A stretch of DNA of 64,000 nucleotides from Phlyctochytrium arcticum. Taxonomy: Eukaryota > Chytridiomycota > Chytridiomycetes > Chytridiales > Chytridiaceae. Every line of letters starts with the position of its first letter. Position 1 is the first letter of the stretch. Position numbers and translations under genes: made by a program. Below, piece after piece: positions 31,077 through 50,781 of the stretch. The stretch is from assembly GCA_025602905.1 (NCBI GenBank), contig JAHLKI010000007.1:372001-436000 (forward strand), written 5' to 3'. The notes under the pieces are model-generated. The model ran no database searches. It saw only the letters and a list, made by a program, of their open reading frames with translations, and was not told where the DNA came from.

Positions 31077-34000
31077 TTACATGTAATACATGGTGTACTT
31101 GTCCATGGTGGGTTTGACCTTCTTGAGCGAGAAGGCACCTTCGATGCCAGACTTTCCGGCAGAGGTAGACGCAGAGTTGCTGCTGTTGAAGTCGCCTTCG
31201 ATAAACATGCGACCGTCTAAGAAAAAGAATTGAGTAAGAAACGGATTCATAATAAAACAAGAAAGCGAAAGCTCAACACTTACAGAAAGCAGCCAAATGA
31301 GCACGGTAAGCAGGCGCGACCATGTTGATAGATCGGGTGGCTCGCTCGGCCAAGAAGCACAAGTTGTAGCAGAGTTGTTGCAAGACGTTGGAACCCATCT
31401 TGATCTCGTCGTGGAGCACGTGGTAGATGGTGGGTCGGGAAGTTCCCTGGAGACCAGCGTGGGACAACAAAACAAAGTTGTATTCGCTAGGGTGGGTGAT
31501 AACGGTGTCAACGGTGGTTCCGGGTAAACTGTTGCCAGATCGGTCTTGGGTGCTCTGGTCCGTGGGGAAGAATCGGATGTGGTGACGCTTCTGAACGACA
31601 ATGAAGGTGACGGGGCAGTTGAGCTTCATCTTGGCCAAAGCCTTCTTGATGGCGTCAACCTCAACCTCGCGCACTTCTCGGAACTGACCAGACGACACAC
31701 CATCACGGAAAAAGATGAGACGTTGGGGGAACGTGCCAACGGCAGCCTTGAAAGACTCGACAGCTTCAGTCATGATGCGCTCAAGGTCCTGAACGATCTC
31801 AACTCGTGATCCTTGGGCAGAGAGGAACGTACGGTATCGTGTCGCTTGAGCATCCAGAGAGGTGACAACAGCGGCAACAGAAGGAGCGCCGGATCCGGGC
31901 GCGGCGTGGGTAACATCAGCACCAACAATGAGAGTGGGCTTATCTTCGAATATGGGAAGTTTGTCAACGTAGTTGGTGGCACCACCCATCTTCACGTTGA
32001 CCTTCAACGCAACATTCTCGGAGTAGGTATCCTTAAGACCGCCCAGGTTGACCTTGTCGTAGCACATGCACTGAGACAAAACATCCATGTCGGTAAGCGT
32101 GACGCGCTTGACCTCTTCGTAGAGAGACTTGGTTTGCGACTCAATTCGGGCGGATCGCTCGATAACGGTGAAGATGATCTGGCAAGTCGACTTGTAGGTA
32201 CGGTTGGCTTCAGTACCGGCATCGTACAACGCTTGGCGCACGCTCTGAGCTGCCTCGGGGTTTTGGATACGAATAGGGCAAGGAGCAGTAGATCCGAACT
32301 GGATACCAACGCGGCCGAAAACGTTGAGAAGACGTTTGGAAATTTCTCGGGCATCTTGGTCGGATACGCGAACAAAGAAAACGAAAGCGTAACTCATAAT
32401 CTTGGACGCTTTGGCGAGACTTTTACCCAAACGCCATTGACCATCCTTTCCGCTGGCCATTTGACCCTTGCCAAAAACGACGTTGGGGGCGGGCAAAACG
32501 CGTGCGGGCACAGTCATGGGCTTTGAGTCAACCTCGACACCGAATGCCTTCAAGTACGGGTTTTCGCCGTAGTTGAGCACAGAAGCCACAGCGGAAGCAA
32601 TACGACGCTGACGGTCGGCCGGCTTTTGGACCGTAGCACGGATCATCTTGGCAGTCTGGTCACCGTTCAACTTCTTCTCGAAACGTTGGGAAGGAACCAT
32701 ACGAAGAAGTTCCATGGGGAAGGCAGATTTTCCGTTAGGCTAAAGTAAAATGGTTAGTAACATTGCACAGGAGAGCATTACAGCGAAATAAAACCAACCT
32801 TGAGAACAACTGGGAAGTTGGGGTACTTGAGAGTAATGTTGTACTGATCCTTAAAGTATTGCGCAAGAGACTTTCGGACGCCATCAACCTCGAAAAAGTA
32901 GTTGTTGGCATCTTCACGAGAAAAGCTGCCAATCTTGAAACGCATCTTCATGTCACCTCGGTGAGTGGTGCACACGTTGGCGCCCTTGAACTCTGTGACT
33001 AGTTTAGCACGAAGTGCGTTTGGAGTCATTCGGGAAAGAGCATCAACATTCGGGGCGCGCAAAACTTCGGCGGCAAGGTCCAGCAAGTCAATACCTCCCT
33101 GACGGAACACGGTAGCGGCAACGTCAATGTTGACACCCAAGTGGCCAGCCATCATGGCGCGAACATTTTGGTGGTAACCACGCCAGATTTCAAGACCTCC
33201 AGGAATGTGAATACGCTCGACCGGAGTGAAGAAATTGGCACCAACCGAGACGTAACTCATAGCAGGGACGTGACGAAGGAGCACATTGAGCGCAGTAGTG
33301 GCGTGCAAGACATGGTCGGTTTCGGGTGCTTTACCGGCCATGAAAAGCATGAGCTCATGGAAATCAATTTTAGCAGTCTACAGAGAATTCATAGGTTAGA
33401 TATACTGCAAGTCATAAAGGAAAGTGTGAGCGACTAACCTGTTTCAAGGTGATGGTAAACTCTTCCGTCTTGCCAGACCCGCTGGCAGGTGCGGTAGGAG
33501 GGGGGCGCTGAGGGGGTGGGGAACCACCTGGGCGACCTCCGTTTCCTCGGCCTCCGCCGTAACCTCCGCGGTCGCTACCGCCTCCGCGTCCACCGCGGGC
33601 TCCACCACGGCCTCCACCGCGACCACCACCGGCGTTCGCGGGTTCACCAGTGTAAGCGGGATAGAAGTCCTCGTAGTCCTTGTCAACCAAGACATCGAAG
33701 GACATGTTGGGGAAGGAGACGGTGGAGAAGGCATTCTTTTTGCCATCGAAAACCATGTAGGCTTTGGGGTCCTTTTTGCGCAAAGCAGCCTCTCCGGCAG
33801 CCCAGACACGCTTGGCAACAGGAGGCGGGATAGCCTTGGAGAACACGACGTCGTATTGGTAGGCAATAAGACCAGCAGTCATTCTGAAAAAAAAAGCAGG
33901 CGTCAATACCGACCACTTACAGTGAGGAAGTGGGACCAAACTTACTTGAGAGGGTAAATGTTGGTTTGGACCTAGGGAATGGTACAGGGGGAGGGAAAAG

Positions 34001-44218: not shown

Positions 44219-46694
44219 TCAGCGGTGAATGGTGGATGTTCCCTCTTCATACAGATGAAATAATCCACATCGTTGCAATCTATGAGATGAGATTAGAGGG
44301 TGTTCAGCAAGATCGCAAGAGTAGCCCAAATACCTTGAAACAAACTCGCCCACATTTTCCATCTCAGTAACCACGGGGAGCTGATCTTTGCGACAAATCT
44401 TGCGCCAATCTTGGGCATTTTCAACATCAAACTCTTCTTCAGCTTTTACATTGAGCTGTTGCCACCGCATACTCTGTAGGAAAACAGAGATGAGCTTCTC
44501 TAGATGGTTGTGTTGTAGAAAAGGACGAAACGCTACCTTTACGCGTCGAACAAACTCCTGAACTGCATCTGTGCTTCCCTCTACAAGAATGAACCCTGGG
44601 AACCCAATCTTGCAAACCACTATGTAGTTGACAGATTAGCACTTCTATCAAAAGATCAACAGATGCCTTGGCTCATCACATACGTCCCAACTCCAACTCT
44701 AGAGCCCAGGCCCGCATGTTTTTCCGCTCTATTTCCGCAATTAACACTATGCTCTCAGTTTGACAAGAATGACATTTCTTACTCTCAGTGCTTGCGATAT
44801 GGTGACTTTTGATAAAGCAGCGACGCCCCATAGTTGGAACATTGATATCATCAGACTTTTGAGCCGGAGTGCTACTCACTTTTGGCTGTGCAGTTTTTGC
44901 CGCGGCAACTACTGAAGACATACTATCCAACGCATCCATAATCGAGGCATTGACTATGGCATAAATGTGGAAAAGAGAATGCGAGTATCCTTCTTCTTCG
45001 TCCGCTAAATACAAAACACTCTTATAAAATGGTCGCACAACAGATGGATCCAGTGATAACTTACGAGTTAGCTCCGATTCTGCCTTACGTATCTCCGCAT
45101 TGATGGCTTTTGCTACATGTGGAAACTGCTTTTTCTTTAGTTATGTTTAGGTGTTATAGAGCAAGTAGAAAATCATACCTGCTTGTTGCATGAGAATTCG
45201 ATGAGCGCCGGCTCAAATGGGTATCGGGGTGGTAACTGGAAGTGCAATATGCAGGGGTCTATACTTGAGTTGAGTGCTTACGTCTCGTGCAAATAGATGG
45301 CTCAATCGCACCCAGGTTATTCGGTTCGTCACCTGTGACTTTAATGCTGAACTTAAGAATCTGTGATTCGCCAAAGGCGCACGATGCCGCCACTTGTTCC
45401 AATGCGGCGTCCAGTTGTACGCAGTTCTGCAGAAAACGTCCCGTTCAGTTGCTTGTGACAAAAATGTCCAACTCTTTCACGCGCAAACCTCCAGGCCCGG
45501 TGTCACCCATTCAATCTCTCCTTCCCCAGGAAACATGGAATTAAGGAGTTGCAATTCGTCAATTTGCCTTTTGCGATAAGAATCAGACTGAGCGATTGGT
45601 CGAGTGTCCTGCTTTTCAGGTGAAGGACTCCTTTCTGGCTCATTAACCTGGGCGGTCTTCCGTGCCGCGCGTGCCACGTCTATGTTCATAACTTGCCCGG
45701 GCTTAGCCGGTGTATTTACAGCCACGGCTTTGAAGCGAGCAGCCAGTGCAAATGGATCCACCTTGCCCCCCTGATTGCTTTCAATCGAACCTCCTGCCTT
45801 CTTGGCCGGCACTTGGCCAGGGTATGTTTTCTGCGTCGGAGTACGGGAAGTTTTGTTGTCCAAGCTGGGACCGGCTGATTGCACTTTTGGCTGATTGGCT
45901 GGGCTCTGCCGAGTACGGTCAGCGTAGCTAGGCCCTGGGCTCGGTTGACGAATAACTGCCTCATTTGAAGATACCGCCTTAGGAAACTCGCGCTTGATCT
46001 TGGGTTGCGCATCATCTCTACTCGCATGCTGTCTTAGATTTGATGTTTCTGCCTCAAATTGTGATGAGACTTACATAAATATTTGATTTATTTGGTCTTT
46101 GATCTGAAAATTCAATAAAGTTTAGAGTCTTGCCTCTTCCCCATTTCCCCGGCAAAATACCAACTACAGTACCTGCTGCTTGGGAGGACTTGATGCTTCC
46201 CCTTGCGCAGCTAGTGCCTGCCACTGCTGGACTTTTCGTGACCTTTTAGCCGCGCTCTGGAAATGCGAGCAACCATCAATAAAAGTCCTTCCGGAATAGT
46301 ATCTCACTTCAAAAAGGCTCACCTTTGGTGAAATCGTCTTCTTCGGCGGTCCTGGCACGGGCACTGGTGCTGGTGCTGGTGCTGGTGCCGGTGCTGGCGG
46401 CGGTGGTTCAAAGTCCAGAAAGGAATCTTGATACTCCTGTATGCAGTGTTTACAGCGCCGGCGATCGTCTTGCCGTACCTGGACCTTTGAGTAGCCGTCG
46501 CGCTTGACCATTTTCTCGCAAGTCGCACACTGGAGTCGCTCCGAATATCCCGGGGGTGGGACGGGGGCAGCACCAAACCATGAGGGATCAATCGGCTTCT
46601 TCTTCTTCTTCTTCTTTACGACATAGGGGGCGAGGTTGCTGTCACCCGTGCTTTCGACAAAGGTGGTATACTCTTGTTCTTTGTCGGCGAGCAT
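44219..46694 (-). CDS. Composite gene: Stc1-like zinc finger + RWD + DUF1115 (RWDD2-type)
   Basis: From the ATG at 46694 (MLADKEQEYTTFVESTGD) the protein has a poly-Lys stretch, then a C-x-x-C ... C-x-x-C finger (LQCATCEKMVKRDGYSK, RRRCKHCIQEYQDSF) resembling the Stc1 domain, then a Pro/Ala run. Exons continue through SAAKRSRKVQQWQALAAQG and a Ser/Pro-rich linker of about 170 residues into an RWD domain (IDELQLLNSMFPGEGEIEW, then ILKFSIKVTDPCILHFQLPP and RYPFEPALIEFSC after a 74-nt intron). The DUF1115 part of RWDD2 follows (RRCFIKSHHIAST-EKRKNMRAWA, KIGFPGFILVEGSTDAVQEF). The only in-frame Met in the linker is at about 45691, so two separate genes remain possible. Fusion is favoured by an open linker and compatible splice sites at 46160-46020. 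The molecular role is unknown. Confidence 0.62.
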
Positions 46695-47088
46695 CGTTGG
46701 AAAATAGATTTGGCAGGAGAATGTGATTGCGCAAACTGCCAAACTTTCCCACGTCGCTGACGAACTCACGTGTCCGTCGTCGTTATGTTTTGGCGGCTAC
46801 TTTTTGACCTTTTGACTTTCATCTACGGCATTCGCATACAAAGTCAACCTCGGCCAGTAGGGGGGAAAGGAATGTGCGGTGTTTTTCAGAACTCGTTGTG
46901 TTCACAATCACCTGTGACACACACGCTTTCCTCGTTGGCCTGTAGTTTTAGAATATCTCTCTGTACGTAAAGTTGCTGAAAAATGATTATTGCAAGCAGA
47001 AGCCCATTTTATGCTCGATGAACCAAATGAACCATTGGCCATTTTGAGACGAAAAGCAGGTTATCAGTAAGATTGACAGCTATTTATC
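46695..47088. other. Intergenic, nothing recognised
   Basis: 394 bp between two minus-strand genes. No further ORF, repeat or RNA gene was recognised. Confidence 0.4.
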
Positions 47089-49743
47089 CTATGATACAAT
47101 TGGTTCTGCATGCTCCACTTTCCCCTCTCCCTCTGCCGCGCTCAGATTCTCTTGATTGCGTAGCTTCTCCCTCAGTATCTCTCTCACTTCGCGTGCCCGC
47201 TGCATCTTGAGCAACTTCCGCTGCTTCTTAGTTAGCGGAGTTTCAATCTCAACTTCCGGATCAAATCCTGGTTCACCAACAGTAGGCCGTGGGCGTCCAG
47301 TCGTCGCTCTGAGCTGTGGCTCGTTCTCTTGCTCCACCCATCCGTTCTCCTCCAGTTTCTCCGCCGGATTCTGACTGTCCTGCAACGCCTCTTGGATGGC
47401 CTCGACGGGTCGTGGTAGAGGCGTGGTTCCAACTGTTTTGACGACCATGGGAATGCGCGTATTAAGGGAACTCATCAGACGCTCAATTCGCTCCCGAAAG
47501 CGGCGTGAAGACTTGTCCAGATGGTACCCACGATGAATAAACAAAAGAGCACGATTCCATTTTACCAAGTCGATGGCTTGGGTGCCCTTGAAAGGGTTGG
47601 CGGCAAACTGTTTACTGACCTTTTCAGTTTCTGATGGTTTGTCGACAATCAATGCGTATGAAGTTGCTGATGTGCCTTGCTTGGCGGCGGTGGTGGTTGA
47701 CGCAGAAGAGCTTGTGCGTCTAAAGTTGGAAACAGGTTCTGCAGAGATCCAATTATCCTCTCCTGTATCCTCTATAACTCTGCCAACTCCCAAAGCCCGG
47801 CGGATTGTCAGTAACATTTCCGGCTCATGCCATCGGATAACGGCATACCCCCGCGGTCCATCCATCGACACACGCAAACGTCCTCGAGCTTCGAAAAAGC
47901 CCGTGATGTATGAATCCAACTTTCGTAGAGGGCCTTCCGGCAATCCAAAGAGTTCGGGGTGCCCCAATTCGGTGCAAAGCCGGCGTAACTGGGATTGCCG
48001 ATCGGGAACACGAGACTGACCTTTAAGCATTCGGCACATACGAAGCAACCCTGCAGGATCCGTGCACCGCCAAACAAGGTGGTCATCTGGAATGTCGCGC
48101 ACAACACTATACCGCATCATCATTTTGATATAGTAAATAGAATTGAGCTCCGACTTTGGTAGCGTGATTTCCCAAATATGTCGAGGGCCTTCTCCAGAGT
48201 CATTAAAGTAAATCCGTCCTGCGGCATCGTTCAGCCCACCCAGCCAATGAATGAACTTGTTGGGGTCACCGCCAAATGCGTCAGTCAGCTTGGAGAATAG
48301 CAGCTTGTGCGGCTTATCGACGGTCAACGGGTCAACTTGCTCAATAGGAATGTCACCTTGCCATGGGAGCTTTCGCACCTTGCGGACATGCGGTTTAAAG
48401 TATTGTTTCTCGAATAGATCATCTTTTGTGGTGAGGCGACCTTTCAGCTTCTCAGGCTTCTTGAGGACAGTGCCTACATTTGGTTTAGGAGTCTGGATCT
48501 GATACTCGGGTTTGATCGCGTTCTCCACCCTGATTTTCTCAGCCTTTTGTTCTGGCGTGAGAAGCCACGGTTTGTATTGGTTGCGGGGTCGAAAATCATC
48601 AGAGCCTGGGGGCGTTTCCCACTTGCTTTGTGGCGACCTGCGACCTCTGGCCCCATCACTTGATCCATGGTCCTTCTCGAAATGTAGATTCTCGTCGTAT
48701 GAATGTTCTGGTGTATGAGATGACTTTGGTGAATAGGGACGGTTGGTGCGGGATTGATCGTCCCCAAGCCTTGCTTGTCCCTGCGAACTTCGCGCGCTCT
48801 CACTTCGATCATATCGGTCAAAATTGTTGGTAGCTCCTCTTTGCCCACGATCTGACTGAGGATCCTGTCGGCGGTCATATGATCGTTCCGAAGAGTAAGA
48901 TGACTTCGGGGAATAAGGTTGGTCGTCCCCACGTCTTGTTCCTCCCTGTGACCCTCGAGCACTCTCGTTTCTAGCATACCGATCAAAGTTACGTGTGGCT
49001 CCTCTTTGCCCACGATCTGACTGAGGATCCTGCCGGTCATATGGTCGTTCCGAGGAGTACGAGGACATGGGGGGAAAATGTTGCTTGGTCTGCGGTTGTT
49101 CTTTTCCAAATCTTGCTCCTTCCAGTGACCCTCGGGCACTCTCGTTTCTATCATACCGATCAGAGTAACTAGTGGTTCCTCGTTGCCCACGATCTGACTG
49201 AGGAGCCTGTTGGCGGTCGTATGAGCGTTCTGACGAGTAAGATGACTTGGGTGGATAAGATGAATTGGTCCGGGACTGGTCGTTACCGAGTCTTGTTCCT
49301 CCCTGTGAACCTCGAGTATTCTCGTTTCGATCATACCTATCAGAGTAATTAGTGGGTCCTCGTTGCCCAAGATCTGACTGAGAGGCCTGTCGGCGGTCGT
49401 ATGATCGTTCGGAGGAATAGGATGGCTTGGATGATGCAAAAGATGAATTGGATGGAGGGGATGGGTCGGTCAGGGAATATATGTCCGCAAACACTCCGCG
49501 TTCAGGACGTGATGCTTTGCGATATCCAGCCTCCCCAGTTCTGTCGTCTTCTTTATTGTTGAAGGATTTTTTTGACTGATCAGTTCCTGGAGCGTCGTTC
49601 CGATACGAGCGACCCTGACTGGCAACAAGAAGACTTGTGCGGCTTTTTGCGTTGAGACAAGAAGCACTGGATGACCTTCCTCCCACATACTGCTCCCATT
49701 TGATCCAAAACAGCCCACGGCTGGCCGTCCCCAGTCTGTTCAT
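47089..49743 (-). CDS. Nuclear-encoded LAGLIDADG-fold protein, probably mitochondrial
   Basis: Single-exon gene. I chose the ATG at 49743 over the frame's first ATG (49938) because it gives an Arg/Ser-rich, acid-poor leader (MNRLGTASRGLFWIKWEQYV, later SQGRSYRND) typical of mitochondrial import, and because the upstream ATG would overlap the start of PSF2. Length is 884 residues. The middle is four to five copies of a roughly 60-residue repeat (SSYSSERSYDRRQ, QSDRGQRG, DRYDRNESARGSQGG). The C-terminal half has a double LAGLIDADG arrangement: FIHWLGGLNDAAGRIYF and, about 120 residues later, LDSYITGFFEARGRLRV, each followed by the usual strand pattern. Position 8 of the motif, the metal-binding acid of homing endonucleases, is Ala in the first and Arg in the second, so DNA cleavage is unlikely. 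A role as intron maturase or RNA-binding factor is inference. The tail is basic and coiled (KKQRKLLKMQRAREVREIL). Confidence 0.72.
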   Translation of the reverse strand: MNRLGTASRGLFWIKWEQYVGGRSSSASCLNAKSRTSLLVASQGRSYRNDAPGTDQSKKSFNNKEDDRTGEAGYRKASRPERGVFADIYSLTDPSPPSNSSFASSKPSYSSERSYDRRQASQSDLGQRGPTNYSDRYDRNENTRGSQGGTRLGNDQSRTNSSYPPKSSYSSERSYDRQQAPQSDRGQRGTTSYSDRYDRNESARGSLEGARFGKEQPQTKQHFPPMSSYSSERPYDRQDPQSDRGQRGATRNFDRYARNESARGSQGGTRRGDDQPYSPKSSYSSERSYDRRQDPQSDRGQRGATNNFDRYDRSESARSSQGQARLGDDQSRTNRPYSPKSSHTPEHSYDENLHFEKDHGSSDGARGRRSPQSKWETPPGSDDFRPRNQYKPWLLTPEQKAEKIRVENAIKPEYQIQTPKPNVGTVLKKPEKLKGRLTTKDDLFEKQYFKPHVRKVRKLPWQGDIPIEQVDPLTVDKPHKLLFSKLTDAFGGDPNKFIHWLGGLNDAAGRIYFNDSGEGPRHIWEITLPKSELNSIYYIKMMMRYSVVRDIPDDHLVWRCTDPAGLLRMCRMLKGQSRVPDRQSQLRRLCTELGHPELFGLPEGPLRKLDSYITGFFEARGRLRVSMDGPRGYAVIRWHEPEMLLTIRRALGVGRVIEDTGEDNWISAEPVSNFRRTSSSASTTTAAKQGTSATSYALIVDKPSETEKVSKQFAANPFKGTQAIDLVKWNRALLFIHRGYHLDKSSRRFRERIERLMSSLNTRIPMVVKTVGTTPLPRPVEAIQEALQDSQNPAEKLEENGWVEQENEPQLRATTGRPRPTVGEPGFDPEVEIETPLTKKQRKLLKMQRAREVREILREKLRNQENLSAAEGEGKVEHAEPIVS
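48690..49440 (-). repeat. Tandem coding repeat, about 175-180 bp unit
   Basis: Four good copies and one partial copy within the LAGLIDADG-protein gene, each encoding a Ser/Tyr/Arg/Asp/Gln-rich unit of about 58-60 residues. The copies differ by substitutions and by small in-frame gaps, so the array is not very recent. Confidence 0.85.
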
Positions 49744-49928
49744 TGCGATCAATGCTTGCTTTGAGGTTGACCATTGTCGGAATTTTGAATTCTTGAGACT
49801 TGAAGGCCCACAAGCCACTTCCGACGCATTTACCCCTTTTGAGACAAATGAAGTTTCCAGTCGGACTTGCCCCAGGAACCCTCCGCTTTCAAAATTCAGT
49901 TTTCCACCACTGTGATCGGGACCACGAC
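49744..49928. promoter_or_regulatory. Compact divergent promoter, LAGLIDADG gene / PSF2
   Basis: Only 185 bp separate the two start codons. The minus-strand coding frame stays open across it, so a longer LAGLIDADG-protein N terminus overlapping the promoter cannot be ruled out. Confidence 0.45.
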
Positions 49929-50781
49929 ATGTCTTCATACGGACGACTTACTCGCAATGGATTTACTCCAGCTGAAGTCGAGTTTCTTGCCGAGAACGAA
50001 ACAATAACGATTGTACCCACGCAAAAGATGGGCGCTGTTCATTTGATAAATGTAACTTGATAATTGTTTATTCCCAACTTGTGATTGCAATATATAACAA
50101 CCAAACGTTCGCAGGGAACATATGGACCATTCAAGCCGCCACATAAACAGGAAGTTCCATTATGGGTCGCCATAACCTTGAAGCGGAAACAAAAGTGTCA
50201 GATTGCGGCCCCAAGTTGGATGGACGTTGGTGCGTACTACATAGGAACTTTTGTTGATTGGGGGAACATCTTGTTAAATGTTTCTCATTGTAGAGGAGTT
50301 GCGGGAAAAGATAGAGGAAGAAAAGGCCAATCCCCTTTTTGTGAAGATGCCGTTCCACTTTATGGAGGTTGCACATGCAATACTGGACTGGTAAGGAACT
50401 AGCTTGCTCCTTCTGATGTGGGATGTAGCAGCTGACAGTTGAGTACACAGTGCGTCGGATGACATTCCACAGGCCGATGAAGTGCGGACTTTGCTCAAAG
50501 ATCTTCGGGAGTGCCGGCAAGCAAAGGCTCGCAAGGGTCTGGAAGCTTTAGATCATTACTACCTTCAGGTATGATGACTCTGCCTCGATTCGAGCGTTTC
50601 CGTACTCACACCGTGAACGCAGATGAATAACCTTGGGGCTATGGAAATCAACGAGATTCGCCCCTTTTTCACCCGTGCCTTTAACGAACTCCGACGTCTC
50701 CAATCTACACAATCAAGCGACGATTCCCAATCCGCAACACCCGCGCCCACCTTTAGTTCTGGTCGGACACTATACGATTGA
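49929..50781 (+). CDS. PSF2: GINS complex subunit Psf2
   Basis: Subunit of GINS, part of the CMG replicative helicase. The ATG at 49929 opens MSSYGRLTRNGFTPAEVEFL and AENETITIVP, the Psf2-type N terminus. Later exons give GTYGPFKPPHKQEVPLWVAI, TLKRKQKCQIAAPSWMDV, KMPFHFMEVAHAILD, an alpha-helical DDIPQADEVRTLLKDLRE, and the conserved NNLGAMEINEIRPFFTRAFN. The C terminus is a short Ser/Thr-rich tail. Introns (donors near 50053, 50231, 50390 and 50570) all rejoin cleanly. About 205 residues, normal for the family. Confidence 0.92.

Follow-up and report, generated by a model that had tools for sequence, protein, structure and literature searches.

A disarmed LAGLIDADG-fold protein encoded in the nucleus of chytrid fungi, a possible domesticated mitochondrial maturase

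The DNA analysed here, a 64,000-nucleotide stretch of the Phlyctochytrium arcticum genome (the window), comes from contig C7 in a 31.5-Mb assembly, and its minus strand contains at coordinates 47089..49743, stop codon included, an open reading frame encoding a predicted nuclear LAGLIDADG-fold protein of 884 amino acids. The ORF is present on the strand and at the coordinates given for it in an earlier reading made from the letters of the DNA alone (the sequence-only reading), and the description of the gene as nuclear and intronless is true of the predicted ORF. The minus-strand frame extends further upstream (47089-49938), being open for 949 codons from its first ATG at 49938, but that ATG falls within the first exon of a Psf2 gene that is oriented divergently to the LAGLIDADG-fold ORF, has its own ATG at 49929-49931, and matches the Pfam family PSF2_N in its first two exon stretches (E values of 3e-10 and 2.1e-13). 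We therefore prefer the start at 49743, the product of which is identical to the database protein P0002, and consider the 949-codon extension to 49938, which overlaps the start of Psf2, to be unlikely; residue numbers below nonetheless refer to the 949-residue frame. The neighbouring genes encode Psf2, a class IV aminotransferase, and an Stc1-domain protein, showing that the contig is nuclear, and the ORF stands free between nuclear genes rather than within an intron or an intein. It is a single-copy gene, with a protein search of the genome returning one match, which is the gene itself.

The Stc1-domain gene lies at window positions 46164-46769 on the minus strand (Pfam E value of 1.7e-5), and in fission yeast Stc1 connects RNA interference with heterochromatin. 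Approximately 13 kb from it, at 31273-32715 and also on the minus strand, is a frame that by eye resembles the C-terminal part of Argonaute.

The double-motif LAGLIDADG domain occupies 47449..48300 (minus strand; residues 547-830), and contains motif 1 (LGGLNDAAG, residues 566-574, 48217..48243, minus strand) and motif 2 (ITGFFEARG, residues 678-686, 47881..47907, minus strand). The motif sequences are those quoted in the sequence-only reading, although they are 112 residues apart and not about 120. That reading had also called the eighth position Ala in one motif and Arg in the other, in place of the metal-binding Asp of I-CreI and its relatives, and these residues are Ala573 and Arg685. The same Ala and Arg are present in both relatives identified in Spizellomyces (see below), such that all three family members lack an acidic residue at this position in either half. 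We compared these with 89 LAGLIDADG_1 enzymes, among which position 8 is Asp in 85 at motif 1 – the exceptions being Asn (two), Gly (one), and Arg (one) – and in all 89 at motif 2, with none of the 89 lacking the Asp in both motifs. Both family motifs align with both motifs of a set of 24 enzymes, and three columns that are Lys in 24, 22, and 23 of these are occupied in the three family members by Gln/Arg, Arg, and Gln, at residues 641, 647, and 787, respectively.

A nuclease that remains active through rearranged active-site residues would be compatible with the Asp and Glu retained at motif position 6, and some enzymes of this family are described as having an active-site Glu (in the titles of PDB entries 6uwg and 6bcn). 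However, with Ala and Arg at position 8 in all three members and the three near-invariant lysines replaced, we regard continued cutting as very improbable, and our reading of these alignments is that DNA cutting has been lost while the fold and its basic character are kept.

Profile and structural comparisons support an origin from double-motif homing endonucleases. None of the three family members matches a LAGLIDADG model in Pfam at E≤10. A profile-profile comparison of the three-member family with the 89 LAGLIDADG_1 proteins using hhalign gives a score of 51.3 and a probability of 88 with both motifs in register (the E value of 3.1e-6 applies to this single comparison), whereas 100 column shuffles reach no more than 25.2 and reversing the family yields 16.2, so that the similarity is more than chance. 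A PDB profile search points to the same descent, and the duplicated alpha-beta-beta-alpha-beta-beta-alpha fold is found in two structural models, one built without any endonuclease row in its alignment and the other with endonuclease rows, which makes the latter partly circular. The endonuclease-free model is of low confidence (pLDDT of 41, pTM of 0.25), and its matches have query-normalised TM values of 0.12-0.16 with an rmsd of 16.5-23.4 over their length. All three approaches thus favour the LAGLIDADG fold that was proposed for this protein.

The surface that contacts DNA in the enzymes appears to have changed. Summed over those parts of the sheets that make up the DNA saddle, the net charge is -3, +1, and +4 in the three family members compared to +5 to +10 in the 24 enzymes, with the caveat that one family strand aligns with nothing in the enzymes and that the highest family value (+4, in Spizellomyces 'palustris') is only one unit under the enzyme minimum of +5. 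The third and fourth strands in each half account for most of the gap, which arises in two of the four hairpins, the others overlapping with the enzymes. The domain as a whole stays basic, with charges of +12, +16, and +15 in the family and +11 to +23 in the enzymes. Canonical DNA binding is thus probably weakened, as judged from these residues.

A disarmed LAGLIDADG domain could serve as a sequence-specific, non-cutting DNA binder of the mitochondrial nucleoid or the nucleus, comparable to the use of bacterial WhiA in transcription. WhiA/DUF199 is a case of a LAGLIDADG domain in the service of its host, and the structural matches to the chytrid protein include WhiA chains. WhiA is a bacterial transcription factor with an additional DNA-binding domain, and no WhiA-type C-terminal DNA-binding domain is matched in the chytrid family by Pfam at E≤10, a search that also misses the LAGLIDADG domain here. 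We consider a role of this type to be distinctly unlikely.

A search of 5.8 billion proteins identified, besides the query, only two relatives, both from Spizellomyces: SPPG_08533 of S. punctatus (610 aa; 52% identity over 80% of the query region) and a 615-aa protein of S. 'palustris' (51% identity over 83% of the query region), whose entries are named only 'uncharacterized' and 'hypothetical protein'. With the query itself, these were the three proteins at E≤0.01 among 4,124 candidates in a word-based search, which divergent relatives can escape, and using the alignment as query at E≤10 returned the same three (7,991 candidates scored). The matches place the host among chytrids akin to Spizellomyces. 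The family evidence thus consists of three sequences from one lineage.

Conservation is unevenly distributed along the protein. Relative to S. punctatus, 83 of 134 residues are identical in the first half-domain, and parts of the second half-domain have 31/62, 13/27 (the insert), and 33/77 identities, compared to 26/91 where the disordered N-terminal region can be aligned and 8/40 across the linker. At 33/77, the final part of the second half is barely above the C-terminal tail, an acid-rich segment of 107 amino acids without a known domain (47092..47412, minus strand), in which 41 of 107 residues are identical. The insert, a Ser/Thr-rich segment of about 30 residues with low pLDDT that precedes the last strand of the second half (47668..47757, minus strand), is common to all three members and longer in those from Spizellomyces. 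Read with the standard code, the frame is uninterrupted in all three species and contains no in-frame TAG.

Selfish endonucleases are thought to evade decay either by constant homing or by acquiring a host role, and we asked how well the gene fits a decaying nuclear insertion of a mitochondrial endonuclease gene with no host function. Endonuclease genes do go through invasion, degradation, and loss, as outlined in PMC3943268. However, three species have an uninterrupted standard-code frame at about 50% identity, the first half-domain is clearly more conserved than the N-terminal region, and the position-8 residues are identical in all three. A decaying insertion would not be expected to look like this, and such an origin is scarcely credible. 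We conclude that retention of a disarmed endonuclease as a host gene is nearly certain. As far as sequence comparison can tell, three chytrid genomes so far encode a LAGLIDADG protein that has been disarmed and domesticated in a fungal nucleus and is most similar to the I-OnuI type.

The sequence-only reading had also described a leader of mitochondrial type and a large repetitive disordered domain. The N-terminal 45 residues (49609..49743, minus strand) are basic and Ser-rich and form a candidate leader, with six Lys or Arg and a single Asp or Glu within the first 40 residues, and this composition fits the description. However, the P. arcticum N-terminus is not amphipathic, with a moment of 0.29 that is equalled or exceeded in 95% of 1,000 shuffles, whereas the Spizellomyces N-termini have an amphipathic basic helix with moments of 0.63 and 0.67 (2.6% and 3.0% of 1,000 shuffles as high). 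Mitochondrial import is therefore likely for the family as a whole, and weakly supported for the P. arcticum protein, from these N-terminal sequences.

The repetitive domain is real, with a Ser/Arg/Asp/Gly-rich low-complexity region of approximately 60-aa repeats at 48589..49473 (minus strand), within which Tandem Repeats Finder (TRF) reports an in-frame array at 48920-49451 with a 180-bp unit, three copies, and an 80% match. It is missing from both Spizellomyces relatives, and is therefore not part of the conserved protein. Because it is found only in this species' protein, we view the region as a lineage addition that provides no argument on function.

Contig C60 (61,168 bases; loci L006-L009) is mitochondrial DNA and contains a recurring unit of 32,811 bases that is partly duplicated, with seven of eight sampled points in the first 40 kb recurring at that distance. 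It carries rnl, rns, and tRNAs, and its respiratory genes are open when TAG is read as Leu. Seven putative intron sites with approximate boundaries were read by eye, three in cox1, two in cob, and one each in nad5 and nad1, the continuity of exons being judged against expected protein sequences. An ORF in frame within the nad1 insert matches NUMOD1 and NUMOD3 and, below threshold, GIY-YIG. The second cox1 insert (C60:18784-19792) still encodes two LAGLIDADG motifs, each with its acid, but in different frames, a break that a sequencing error could have caused; among named relatives of its second part, the best-scoring one comes from Powellomyces hirtus, at 56% identity over 87%. The second cob insert has only LAGLIDADG_2 fragments, and thus both of the LAGLIDADG ORFs found in the mtDNA are broken. 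The nad5 insert and the first cob insert are short and without a recognisable ORF, and contain group I-like R (GACTA) and S (TAGTC) sequences spaced by 61 and 41 bases, respectively; GACTANA occurs only three times in the 32,811-base unit, and the other five of the seven inserts lack one or both patterns. The group I class of these introns is putative, since the Rfam group I model matches nothing at E≤1 over 40,000 bases of the mtDNA, and nothing at E≤0.001 in the genome, where 26 of 978 candidates were scored.

Several other features of the mtDNA were observed. A fragment of a DNA-dependent RNA polymerase is present at L007:4403-4978 (C60:14403-14978; PF00940, E value of 2.9e-6), and a frame at L006:1144-2271 resembles by eye a plasmid-type DNA polymerase, though without a Pfam match; together these are possible remnants of a linear mitochondrial plasmid. 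Several microRNA-precursor models match both strands at L006:646-747, which is probably an inverted repeat rather than a microRNA.

The sequence-only reading had suggested inspecting the mitochondrial genome for group I introns lacking their own maturase, and introns without a recognisable ORF together with two broken LAGLIDADG ORFs are present, albeit without a match to the Rfam group I model. These introns are therefore plausible substrates for a trans-acting splicing factor, and are compatible with the maturase idea without singling it out. A fixed, disarmed nuclear copy coexists with mtDNA whose own LAGLIDADG ORFs are broken.

In proposing that the gene encodes a domesticated mitochondrial maturase, the sequence-only reading was borne out as to the protein, its fold, the loss of the acids, and the nuclear location, is plausible in its general direction, and fares less well as to import, for which evidence is weak in this species. 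We consider it likely that the protein acts in mitochondria, and by analogy with known systems the foremost role proposed for it, as yet unproven, is intron splicing. The gene for a monomeric, double-motif, I-OnuI-like endonuclease would have moved to the nucleus in an ancestor of Spizellomyces and P. arcticum, lost both catalytic acids, and been kept as a gene for a host protein. Once imported into mitochondria, this protein may bind structured intron RNA via a basic surface distinct from the old DNA saddle and chaperone group I introns in trans, standing in for decayed intron-encoded proteins. Taken as a whole, from nuclear transfer and disarming through host retention and import to group I splicing, we give this explanation about an even chance. 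Somewhat more doubtful is the fuller version in which the LAGLIDADG gene of a mitochondrial intron was transferred and disarmed in an ancestor of the Spizellomyces lineage, and its product now acts in trans to splice several mitochondrial group I introns, freeing them to lose their ORFs; we know of no earlier nuclear-encoded, endonuclease-derived maturase in fungi. Fungi are known to splice such introns with unrelated nuclear factors, which counts against a splicing role.

The disarmed fold might instead contact rRNA or mRNA rather than introns, as a mitochondrial ribosomal protein or as a ribosome-assembly or RNA-stability factor, a role also named in the sequence-only reading. The basic domain, the leaders in Spizellomyces, and the conserved insert and C-terminal tail that extend beyond the endonuclease fold are all consistent with this. 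Weighing lightly against it, the PDB sequence search at E≤10 brings up no ribosomal chain, and no LAGLIDADG component of the mitoribosome is named in the titles and abstract openings of the few papers listed by literature searches. We consider this main alternative rather unlikely. For the splicing role, I-AniI, intron proteins with maturase function alone, and OTP51 provide the precedents.

The best structural matches are monomeric double-motif enzymes of the I-OnuI/I-SmaMI type (LAGLIDADG_1), with two alpha-beta-beta-alpha-beta-beta-alpha halves and both motif helices in register. The chytrid protein differs from these in the loss of both position-8 acids, a lower saddle charge, and its free nuclear gene, and it adds the insert and the tail, plus the disordered repeats in P. 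arcticum only. Yeast HO endonuclease is like the chytrid protein a domesticated member of a homing element family in a fungal nucleus; HO is intein-related and still cuts DNA in mating-type switching. The bifunctional endonuclease/maturase I-AniI (PDB 1p8k) is also among the structural matches, at rank 44, but is active and intron-encoded, whereas the chytrid protein is nuclear and its cutting residues are gone. According to PMC3943268, I-AniI has separate surfaces for DNA and RNA with separable activities, an example of this fold promoting group I splicing, and PMC8393795 indicates that some intron proteins may retain maturase function alone.

Plant OTP51 is a nuclear LAGLIDADG protein required for organelle splicing (PMC2758277, PMC8393795), and PMC2758277 describes it as lacking residues thought important for endonuclease activity, making the parallel drawn in the sequence-only reading an apt one. 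Both OTP51 and the chytrid protein are encoded by nuclear genes, have two LAGLIDADG motifs, and lack the endonuclease residues. However, OTP51 carries PPR repeats and its targets are group II introns of the chloroplast, whereas Pfam finds no PPR in the chytrid family at E≤10, a search that very divergent repeats could escape. Set against each other by description and not by sequence, the two likely arose independently, and if the splicing role is true, the chytrid protein would be another case beside OTP51 of a mobile intron enzyme that became a host RNA factor.
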